A stretch of DNA of 32,846 nucleotides from Leptolyngbya sp. DLM2.Bin15 (GTDB lineage Bacteria > Cyanobacteriota > Cyanobacteriia > RECH01): NCBI GenBank assembly GCA_007694125.1, contig RECH01000185.1, forward strand, positions 1 through 32,846, given 5' to 3'. Under the pieces are notes generated by a model. The model was not told the DNA's origin. It did no database searches and saw nothing but the letters and a program-made list of their open reading frames with translations. Positions 3,141 to 22,147 of the stretch are shown here, piece by piece (the stretch's first letter is position 1; each line of letters opens with the position of its first letter). The position numbers and the translations under genes are program-made.

Positions 3141-3176
3141 AGGGTGCGGTTAGGCGAAGCCGTAACGCACGATCTC
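3141..3176. repeat. Palindromic dispersed repeat, copy 1
   Basis: A stretch containing GGCGAAGCCGTAACGCAC and GATCTC. It repeats about 70 bp further on (3214-3275) and again at 22009-22065. It is GC-rich, self-complementary in part (GGTGCG near CGCAC) and intergenic, as for REP-type elements. Confidence 0.6.
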
Positions 3177-3213: not shown

Positions 3214-3275
3214 AGGGTGCTAGGCGAAACCGTAGCGCACCATCTCATGAGGCTTGGAGCGTTACGCGATCGCTT
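3214..3275. repeat. Palindromic dispersed repeat, copy 2
   Basis: Contains GGCGAAACCGTAGCGCACC followed by ATCTCATGAGGCTT and then a GCG-TTACGCGATCGCT tail. The first and middle parts match 22009-22065 closely, including the stretch CACCATCTCATGAGGCTT; the tails differ by a few bases. The inner GTGC...GCAC and the later GCGTTACGC permit folding. Confidence 0.65.
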
Positions 3276-12125: not shown

Positions 12126-12198
12126 CGCCCCAGGTAGGATTCGAACCTACGGCCGTCTGCTTAGAAGGCAGATGCTCTATCCACTGAGCTACTGGAGC
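12126..12198 (-). tRNA. tRNA-Arg (anticodon UCU)
   Basis: A 73-base tRNA gene on the minus strand. The acceptor arm GCTCCAG pairs with CTGGGGC (one G-T wobble) and is followed by a G discriminator. The D arm has AGCTCAGTGGATAGAGC, the anticodon arm CTGCCTTCTAAGCAG with TCT in the loop (reads AGA, and by wobble AGG), and the T arm GTAGG-TTCGAATC-CTAC. No CCA is encoded at the 3' end; the gene continues TAG, so the tail must be added after transcription, a job of the nucleotidyltransferase at 18634. Confidence 0.97.
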
Positions 12199-20168: not shown

Positions 20169-20417
20169 ATGTGTATTTGCGTCAACTGCCGCTACGTCGA
20201 TCGCTGTATTACCTATCATGAGGTCGAGCACCAGCATCAGCAACCCCATCTCACAGAATCTCCAGATTTCGAAGCTGTTGAACCGACGATTAATGTCAAT
20301 ATCCGCCACCATGATCAAGAAATTGAGATGGAGTGGGATGTTGTTGGGTGCGAAAGTTTTACCGCTGATCAAGGCAAGTGGTCGCGGCTGCGTCCCGGAG
20401 AACTGGTTCCCACCTAA
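20169..20417 (+). CDS. ycf34: Ycf34, iron-sulfur protein of photosynthesis
   Basis: An 82-residue protein matching Ycf34, conserved in cyanobacteria and red-lineage plastids. It begins MCICVNCRYVDRC, giving Cys2, Cys4, Cys7 and Cys13, then YHEVEHQH...QPHL, PTINVNI and EMEWDVVGCESF with Cys61 followed by GKWSRL. Ycf34 from Synechocystis was reported to bind a 4Fe-4S cluster and to affect photosynthetic electron transport and pigment levels. I start at ATG 20169: a GGGGGAGG ribosome site lies seven bases upstream and family members begin MCIC. An in-frame ATG at 20133 would add residues without support. The next gene starts 5 bases after its stop, so the two are surely co-transcribed. Confidence 0.93.
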   Translation: MCICVNCRYVDRCITYHEVEHQHQQPHLTESPDFEAVEPTINVNIRHHDQEIEMEWDVVGCESFTADQGKWSRLRPGELVPT

Positions 20418-20480
20418 TCCATATGCAAATTCTTGAGCAAACTCCTCAGCGATTGGTCATTCGGTATAATCCTGTGCATC
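20275..20480 (+). repeat. Segmental duplication, left copy (5' high-identity part)
   Basis: The 3' half of ycf34 and the first ~18 codons of the next gene recur at 21290-21495, 1,015 bases downstream, in the same order and strand with roughly nine in ten bases equal by eye. Beyond this part the copies are similar mainly at protein level. Confidence 0.85.
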
Positions 20481-20944
20481 GCTGGCTGATGGCAGCAGGG
20501 GCGATCGTCTACATTTTTGTGTCGGGTGTGTCGGGCAGTGCCGCGGCCCGCGCCATTTATGCCGTCTTTCTGCTGAGCATTGCCCTGGTTCTGTTGCTCT
20601 GGCGGGGAGATCAGGTGACCTGCGCGTTTGATAAGCAAAAGGGCCGCCTCACCTATCAACGCAGTGGACTAAGGGGCACCAATACCACGGTCGTTCCCTT
20701 GCCCACCGTTTCCCATATCACCCTGCAAGAGCGACGGTATCGCCGCCGGTCGTGGCGGGAGGGACGGGTCTATTGGGTGTACCTAGAGCTGCGCTCATCG
20801 CGGGAGCGGCTGGCCCTGTCGTCCGATACGTTCTTTGACTTAGAAAAAGCCCAGAATGCTGCCTGGCTGGTGTCAGATTTTCTCGGTCTACCGCCGTTCA
20901 GTTTTGTTGAAGCTCCTCCTCTGTCCCTGTTTTCGTTTTACTAG
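20423..20944 (+). CDS. Small membrane protein with PH-like domain, copy 1
   Basis: A 173-residue protein: MQILEQTPQRLVIRYNP, two closely spaced membrane helices (WLMAAGAIVYIFVSGV and AIYAVFLLSIALVLLLW), then a soluble beta-rich part QVTCAFDKQKGRLTYQRSGLRG...TTVVPLPTVSHITLQERR...VYLELRSSRERLALSS and a C-terminal helix AQNAAWLVSDFLGLPPF. The arrangement resembles bacterial PH-domain (bPH) membrane proteins, whose function is mostly unknown; I do not claim more. It begins 5 bases after ycf34, suggesting translational coupling. A second copy lies at 21438-21980, about half identical over the soluble part. The ATG is chosen because both copies start MQILEQT. Confidence 0.8.
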   Translation: MQILEQTPQRLVIRYNPVHRWLMAAGAIVYIFVSGVSGSAAARAIYAVFLLSIALVLLLWRGDQVTCAFDKQKGRLTYQRSGLRGTNTTVVPLPTVSHITLQERRYRRRSWREGRVYWVYLELRSSRERLALSSDTFFDLEKAQNAAWLVSDFLGLPPFSFVEAPPLSLFSFY

Positions 20945-21289
20945 ACCCTGCTCTTATCCGTAGCTGGATCTTTTAATACACCGTGGTGTAGGATGCCGTT
21001 AGAGCCCGCACTATCTAGTCAAACATCTAGTCAAGTTGATGGAGACTAACGCTAGTAAAGCATTCAGGCTCATTTGGTTGGTAAATCTAATGTCTTTTGC
21101 ATGAGGAAGCAATAGGTTGAGAACTTGCTTGACCCATTTTCTTACGTTAGATATGCCACTAAGTGGGAAGACTTAACGATTGGCAGGCATTTCGACGTCG
21201 CTCAATGCTCAAATCCTGATGAGGAGAGGATTGAGCGTAGTCGAAACCCGGCAATTTGGCTTCATTGAATGGAGTCCACCTACTTAGCA
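20945..21289. other. Spacer between the duplicated units
   Basis: About 345 bases without a gene, separating the left duplicate from the ycf34 remnant. It contains the hairpin repeat at 21190-21246. The first half shows nothing I can identify. The 5' half of ycf34, including the cysteine cluster, is absent at the place where it would be expected. Confidence 0.5.
21190..21246. repeat. 57-bp hairpin element
   Basis: TTTCGACGTCGCTCAAT (21190-21206) and ATTGAGCGTAGTCGAAA (21230-21246) are inverted copies with two mismatches around a 23-base loop. The arm resembles the TTTCGACTACGCTCAA motif common in cyanobacterial intergenic palindromes. It ends 43 bases before the duplicated ycf34 piece. Confidence 0.7.
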
Positions 21290-21437
21290 CTGTTGAACCA
21301 ACGATAAAGGTCAATATCCGTCGCCATGATCACGAGATGGAGATGGAGTGGGATGGGCTTGGGTGCGAAAGTTTGACCGCTGATCAAGGCAAGTGGTCGC
21401 GGTTGCGTCTTGGAGGACTGGTACCAACCCAATCACC
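21290..21437 (+). pseudogene. Truncated ycf34 remnant
   Basis: The frame from GTT at 21292 reads VEPTIKVNIRRHDHEMEMEWDGLGCES, GKWSRLRLGGLVPT, clearly the C-terminal half of Ycf34 at 20169. The N-terminal 37 residues, with four of five cysteines, are missing, and the stop codon has mutated (ACC-TAA to ACC-CAA), so the frame runs on into the next gene. A TTG-initiated frame from 21256 could make a 78-residue product without a cluster-binding site, but there is no ribosome site. I call it a pseudogene. Confidence 0.85.
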
Positions 21438-21980
21438 ATGCAAATTCTTGAGCAAACTTCTCAGCGACTGGTCATTCGGTATAATCCCATGAATTACTGG
21501 CTGCTGACATTAAGGGCGATCGCTTTCATTTTTTCGGCGGTTGTGTTGGTCGGTACTTTTGGGGTGGCTGTGTTGAGCGGTGATTGGTTTTTGAACATCC
21601 TCTGTATATTCTACCTACCAATTCTTGCCTTGCTGTGGCTCTTACCGGAGGGGCAGGGGCAGGTCACCTGCACGTTTGATAAGCAAGCGGACCGCCTCCT
21701 TTATCAACGCAGGAGCCTGCGGGGTACCACCACGACGGTAGTTGCCTTGTCTACCGTTTACCAGATCACTCTTCAGGAGGAGCGGCCGGTGCAGAATTAC
21801 ACCTACTTCCCCGGGGAGATACTGTATAGTGTGTACCTAGAACTGCGCTCATCGCGGGAACGGTTTACCCTGCTGCCTGCTAATTCTTTCAACATGGTAA
21901 AAGCCCAGAAGATAGTCTGGCTGGTGTCAGATTTTCTCGAACTACCTCCGTTCAATCTTATCGAATTTGTTGAACCATAA
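21438..21980 (+). CDS. Small membrane protein with PH-like domain, copy 2
   Basis: A 180-residue paralogue of the gene at 20423. The first 17 residues are almost identical (MQILEQTSQRLVIRYNP). The membrane region has diverged (LLTLRAIAFIFSAVVLVGTFGVAV, then ILCIFYLPILALLWLL), the soluble part is again similar (QVTCTFDKQADRLLYQRRSLRGTTTTVV, VYLELRSSRERFTLLP, AQKIVWLVSDFLELPPFNL). The frame is intact with no stops, so selection has probably kept it even though its upstream ycf34 partner decayed. Its ribosome site must lie in the remnant; GGAGG at about 21414 is 20 bases from the ATG, so translation may be weak. Its transcription start is unknown. Confidence 0.78.
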   Translation: MQILEQTSQRLVIRYNPMNYWLLTLRAIAFIFSAVVLVGTFGVAVLSGDWFLNILCIFYLPILALLWLLPEGQGQVTCTFDKQADRLLYQRRSLRGTTTTVVALSTVYQITLQEERPVQNYTYFPGEILYSVYLELRSSRERFTLLPANSFNMVKAQKIVWLVSDFLELPPFNLIEFVEP

Positions 21981-22008
21981 GCAAAAGAGCCGCCGCACCC
22001 CTCAACCC

Positions 22009-22065
22009 GGTGAGGCGTAGCCGTAACGCACCATCTCATGAGGCTTTGATGCGTTGCGCTGTCGC
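22009..22065. repeat. Palindromic dispersed repeat, copy 3
   Basis: GGTGAGGCGTAGCCGTAACGCACC followed by ATCTCATGAGGCTT and GATGCGTTGCGCTGTCGCT; matches 3214-3275 in order and sequence with a few changes. Here it lies downstream of the second PH-like gene. Confidence 0.65.
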
Positions 22066-22147
22066 TCACACATCCTGCCTATCTATAGAGTTTGCTACTC
22101 AGAACGTCATCGAACTCAGGTATGAGAAGGGTAGGGCTGGGCGATGG

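Follow-up and report, generated by a model that had tools for sequence, protein, structure and literature searches.

The analysed stretch of Leptolyngbya sp. DLM2.Bin15 DNA (32,846 nucleotides; hereafter, the window) carries two copies, A and B, of a unit composed of ycf34 and the small membrane protein gene that follows it (here called mem). In the interpretation that we favor, with a probability of about 60%, copy B is a rather old extra copy that would have been rearranged at dispersed repeats, its membrane gene (memB) has been retained by selection, and both mem products would adopt a fold similar to that of EROS/CYBC1 and, by analogy, play a role in assembly. The initial annotation of this DNA had overlooked the MITE-like element at the edge of copy B, the fragment of a third copy and the relationship with EROS.

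Organization of the duplicated locus

The ycf34-mem unit, initially annotated as present twice, 1,015 bases apart, was recovered as a direct repeat (20275-20539 and 21290-21554; spacing 1015, 83% identity), which resumes at 20612-20731/21660-21779 (78% identity) and again at 20771-20911/21825-21965 (77%). Past in-frame insertions the spacing of the two copies grows from 1015 to 1048-1054, and every indel distinguishing A from B within the mem gene has a length that is a multiple of three. The features of the locus are compiled in Table 1. In copy A, memA starts 5 nt past the ycf34 stop codon. The sole Rfam match in the window is a tRNA gene (12126-12198, minus strand).

Table 1. Features of the duplicated ycf34-mem locus (positions in the window).
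Feature	Position	Strand	Remarks
ycf34, copy A, full length, with N-terminal Cys cluster MCICVNCRYVDRC	20169..20417	+	PF10718, E=3.4e-39
memA, 173 aa, two-helix hairpin in PH-like domain (EROS-like, predicted)	20423..20944	+
Spacer	20945..21159	.	20985-21016 resembles the sister-species repeat downstream of mem
MITE-like dispersed element, 127 bp	21160..21286	.
Copy B ycf34 remnant, limited to the 3' half	21290..21431	+	alignment to copy A and sister species
memB, EROS-like paralogue, 180 aa/codons, intact frame	21438..21980	+
Third mem copy, A-like, 36-nt fragment	21977..22012	+
Second dispersed repeat (GTGAGGCGTAGCCGTAACGCACC...)	22010..22080	.	right edge of the inserted segment

The duplication is real. 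The concern, raised with the initial annotation, that the two copies might stem from a collapse or a mis-join, i.e., from an assembly error joining two genomic places, can be set aside as highly improbable, since the longest exact match between A and B is only 27 nt and the flanks on both sides are collinear with two independent assemblies, those of two congeneric species (G001 and G002; hereafter, the sister species). Moreover, the genome contains no other copy of B. The point in favor of an error is the draft state of the assembly (384 contigs).

The intact ycf34 gene and its remnant

The ycf34 gene of copy A encodes a protein that covers positions 1-78 of the PF10718 model, including the N-terminal Cys cluster, and is identical to the Ycf34 proteins of the two sister species. 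In Synechocystis, ycf34 is reported to affect photosynthetic electron transport; the presence of memA in one operon with ycf34 fits a role in redox assembly and proves nothing. The remnant in copy B matches only positions 38-77 of the model (E=2.3e-10) and lacks both a start and the Cys cluster, and its stop codon TAA reads CAA; the loss of the cluster and of the stop had been described correctly before. Without a start, a Cys cluster and a stop, it cannot be a working Ycf34. The remnant shows 16 differences, of which 1, 4 and 11 fall on first, second and third codon positions, respectively (P=0.007, several segments tested); this third-position excess is only a hint that the remnant may have stayed functional for some of the time over which it diverged.

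Distribution of the ycf34-mem unit in related genomes

Both sister species have a single ycf34-mem unit in the collinear place, in agreement with the initial idea of an extra local copy, and mem is followed there by approximately 100 bp, a dispersed repeat and then cbiT. No trace of copy B was detected in either of them. The memA product shares 93-95% protein identity with the sister orthologues, and the memB product 58-59%. With one unit in both sister species, copy B is either an addition of about 1 kb in this genome only or was lost in the sister lineage. The ycf34-mem gene order, which the initial annotation had proposed to look for in other cyanobacteria, is found within the genus and is absent from the rest of the ten genomes checked. 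In the single other genome of the family that was compared (G003), the order is pcnB-ycf34, without a mem gene, and ycf34 is followed by a kinase gene whose product has a start similar to MSYCLNPxC (L024, 2663-3226). For the mem family as a whole, we found no conserved gene neighborhood that holds across the class.

Repeated elements at the edges of copy B

The 127-bp element at the left edge of copy B has terminal inverted repeats (TAAGTGGG/CCTACTTA) and a strong internal palindrome (fold z-score -5.7), and its flanks show no clear target-site duplication beyond the TA of its ends. Searches with the spacer yielded matches in all three genomes of the genus (57, 48 and 46) and none in G003, and nearly all of these matches correspond to the 127-bp element; the spacer part 21017-21159 had no counterpart and no further copies in the four genomes searched. 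The homology of copy B starts at 21290, 3 nt after the element, and the rest of the spacer holds no convincing remnant of the missing ycf34 head. The MITE-like element may explain this absence: a deletion or rearrangement at the element would have removed the head, at the stage of the history proposed below.

At the other end of copy B, the segment 21977-22012 shares 30 of its 36 bases with memA, the same number with each of the two sister orthologues, and 22 with memB. Being closer to memA and the sister genes than to memB, it is considered a scrap left by a third, A-like copy. The second dispersed repeat, which adjoins it, gave at least 35 matches in each genome of the genus, and those in G003 were few and weak; it also sits at the corresponding site in the sister species. 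Further members of this repeat family are present in the window at 3147-3176 and 3222-3274.

Divergence and age of copy B

The memA and memB products share 54-58% identity. The worst conserved part is the second helix region, which can hardly be aligned (22%; alignment columns 41-60), compared with 35-75% in the soluble part, a pattern of strong divergence in the helices and moderate divergence in the soluble domain that had already been recognized in the initial annotation. The accompanying statement that the first ~200 bases of the copies are nearly identical was not confirmed, the actual identity being 87%.

Silent divergence (dS) between memA and its sister orthologues amounts to 0.25-0.36, within the range of 13 neighboring genes (0.10-0.40), and reaches 0.38-0.45 between B and the three copy-A orthologues (helix region left out). 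The ratio of the two silent distances, B-to-orthologues to A-to-sister, is 1.50 (95% interval 1.06-2.28; P=0.012 for a ratio <=1). Calculated by part, it is 1.19 (0.62-2.15) for the 5' part and 1.71 (1.11-2.83) for the soluble part, with overlapping intervals. The A-to-sister dS itself is 0.19-0.22 in the 5' part vs. 0.29-0.35 in the soluble part. Gene conversion, one of the two explanations offered initially for the similarity of the 5' ends, is therefore not needed, since this stretch also shows the lower divergence when the species are compared. As for the other explanation, a strong constraint, a start of the form MxxVxQTxxxLxLxxxPxxxW is kept in distant members of the family, which lends it some support.

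In phylogenetic comparisons the best tree joined B to G001 (weight 0.70), and no topology was rejected. Judged by its silent divergence, copy B is probably about as old as the crown of the genus or older; the trees leave its age open, and since B may be placed in more than one way, a younger origin combined with a raised silent rate would be possible. A recent derivation of B from the present-day copy A is not supported: the silent distance of B is 1.5 times that of A to its sisters, and the tree uniting A and B was not preferred, though not rejected. We consider it unlikely that the tandem duplication of the initial annotation took place recently, within the species, and that memB diverged very fast thereafter. 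Such an event would account for the presence of B in this genome only and in tandem, for the result of a relative-rate test (memB faster than the orthologue, 14 vs. 4, P=0.03) and for a 5' silent divergence of B no greater than that of the sisters, but it disagrees with the overall silent distance and with the copy-A-specific sites, at which B has the sister state in 24 cases and the A state in 10 (counted over every aligned column; the non-homologous tail accounts for several of the latter).

Somewhat less doubtful is the transfer of B from a lineage, within the genus or the family, that has not been sampled, with insertion at a repeat beside memA. In favor of transfer are the best tree, in which B stands with G001 and not with A, the third-position bias of the ycf34 remnant, which looks as if the sequence had diverged while it was a working gene, and the lack of any trace of B in the two sister species; only three genomes represent the genus. 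However, a search of 390 genomes of the class revealed no donor, the edge element is native to the genus itself, and an old duplication followed by loss in the sister lineage predicts the same pattern.

Selection on memB and its expression

The dN/dS values obtained for memB vs. the other genes (0.6-0.7) exceed those for memA vs. its sister orthologues (0.08-0.15). In a neutral test, an ancestor (assumed to equal the orthologue majority) was evolved neutrally to an equal count of differences, and the products were scored, outside the helices, with a profile of 23 distant family members (27 rows). memB scored 80.1 and the ancestor 82.0, compared with -11.6 +/- 18.4 for the stop-free neutral products, none of which (0 of 171) scored as high as memB; the frame stayed stop-free in about 3-6% of the runs (5.7% in the simulation scored here). 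In addition, memB has changed at 8 of 42 conserved family columns vs. 37 of 85 others (P=0.01). The neutral simulation, the avoidance of conserved columns and the frame-keeping indels together argue that memB was selected for its fold during most of its history. The gene is thus apparently fast-diverging but still under selection, and it most likely makes a working protein. The initial proposal that this paralogue was kept, and is not decaying, agrees with its intact frame and with a family profile score that is unchanged where neutral evolution would have lowered it. Partial relaxation of constraint would likewise be compatible with a dN/dS near 0.6. Ahead of the second helix, the changes in memB show no bias toward third codon positions.

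The promoter scan revealed nothing upstream of memB; its one site lies inside memB and is below chance expectation. The spacer holds a terminator-like hairpin and a palindrome, and with no promoter match upstream the expression of memB is therefore doubtful. A promoter match lacking upstream, a lost operon partner and a dN/dS near 0.6-0.7 would all suit a pseudogene that has yet to meet a stop codon. Such an origin of the intact frame is nevertheless quite improbable, given how few neutral runs stayed stop-free and that their profile scores never reached that of memB; furthermore, at equal alignment depth the AlphaFold (AF2) model of memB has a higher pLDDT (83) than that of memA (76).

A membrane protein family related to EROS/CYBC1

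The human phagocyte NADPH oxidase requires EROS, a chaperone that helps to build this white-cell enzyme. To our knowledge, the link between EROS and photosynthetic organisms has so far been drawn via Ycf4 alone. EROS has a PH domain into which a transmembrane hairpin is inserted, between strands 2 and 3, and the protein binds immature gp91phox before the addition of haem and shields it from degradation (PMC9767466). EROS and Ycf4, the latter required for the accumulation of photosystem I, have been described as orthologues (PMC5379978, which also summarises the Ycf4 requirement).

Neither memA nor memB matched any Pfam or NCBIfam family above the cut-off, and PHROGs gave no family either. A profile search of the PDB (27 rows) returned human EROS/CYBC1 (8kei chain D) as the single match (E=4.8e-13), and EROS was again the sole match when the profile was built from the nine closest sequences (E=2e-10). 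Foldseek searches with the predicted structures also placed EROS (8kei_D) on top (E=2.1e-7 for memA and 1.3e-6 for memB), with nothing else below 0.001; the TM-scores of the fold match are 0.65-0.75 (0.69/0.75 for memB). The predicted order of elements in both proteins (beta1-beta2, hairpin, beta3-8, helix) is that described for EROS. Based on these profile and model comparisons, we identify the mem proteins as cyanobacterial relatives of EROS/CYBC1 and, more distantly, of Ycf4. With respect to the Pfam Eros model (PF15169; cut-off 27 bits), memA scores 11.6 bits and memB gives no match, and they are therefore called EROS-like relatives and not Eros orthologues; two other members, L067 (28.6 bits) and L014 (27.0), reach the cut-off. 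The latter, exactly at 27 bits, is a longer paralogue of 354 aa from the same genome (G000:C113, 1204-2265, minus strand), with EROS-like/PH and TPR matches.

With a nine-sequence profile, relatives were detected in 130 of 390 class genomes; a single genome contains as many as seven, and this one six. The Pfam Eros search of the same genomes found 3, which is an undercount, since it missed a member in this genome that hmmscan finds, and it was therefore not used for the distribution. Several arrangements of family genes were observed in other genomes: (i) a tandem pair, 79% identical and about 90 nt apart, not beside ycf34 (L007, 859-1392 and 1501-2025; G019:C245); (ii) clusters in G122:C134 and G075:C200, with one match containing in-frame stops; (iii) in one group of genomes, an EROS-like gene divergent to a gene for a zinc-ribbon Ser/Thr kinase starting with MSYCLNPxC (L071, L073, L074, L076, L077, L082, L083 and L086); and (iv) members convergent with a pair encoding cytochrome-b-like and molybdopterin-oxidoreductase-like proteins (G054 and G027) or downstream of two peroxiredoxin-like genes (G151), judged by eye from the sequence (L006, 82-1471; L044, 1488-2818).

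Proposed history and significance

In the history that we propose, the 3' part of the ycf34-mem operon would have come to be present once more, between memA and cbiT, in this species alone; the divergence of copy B from the single-copy orthologues would go back roughly to the diversification of the genus or beyond. The B locus would then have been rearranged at short dispersed repeats, leaving the MITE-like element in place of the ycf34 head and, at the other end, a repeat together with the scrap of a third copy. With the ycf34 head lost, memB would have been left alone and would have evolved fast under selection for its fold. Purely by analogy with EROS, the mem proteins would most likely bind a membrane redox protein that is still immature and stabilize it while it is being assembled, memA in the context of the ycf34 operon and memB perhaps for the same client or for another one.

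The duplication itself represents ordinary genome evolution at dispersed repeats, and what deserves to be followed up is the relationship of the protein family to EROS. The single-copy sister species provide a natural before-and-after comparison. A broader and tentative extension, on which we would not insist, is that a large family of EROS-type assembly chaperones, distinct from Ycf4, often with several members per genome and expanding by local duplication, has gone unrecognised in cyanobacteria, and that memA and memB have been caught diverging to different clients. If true, a second widespread cyanobacterial family linked with EROS would offer simple bacterial systems for studying client recognition by the PH-plus-hairpin fold.

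Comparison with known systems

Like MITEs and the short dispersed repeats of cyanobacteria, the 127-bp element is short, multi-copy and non-coding and has terminal inverted repeats. With regard to Ycf34 (PF10718), copy A is a full, ordinary representative, and copy B is homologous to it across the 3' half. Ycf4 (PF02392), the photosystem I assembly factor, appears to be a distant relative of the mem family (hhalign probability 92.6%, E=4.6e-7), but memA and memB do not match the Pfam model (cut-off 34.7 bits), and the true Ycf4 of this genome is encoded elsewhere (G000:C368, 276 bits). From EROS/CYBC1 (PF15169), whose known client gp91phox is an animal protein, the mem proteins differ in being about 20% identical to it, and they share with it both the profile relationship and the predicted PH-plus-hairpin fold.
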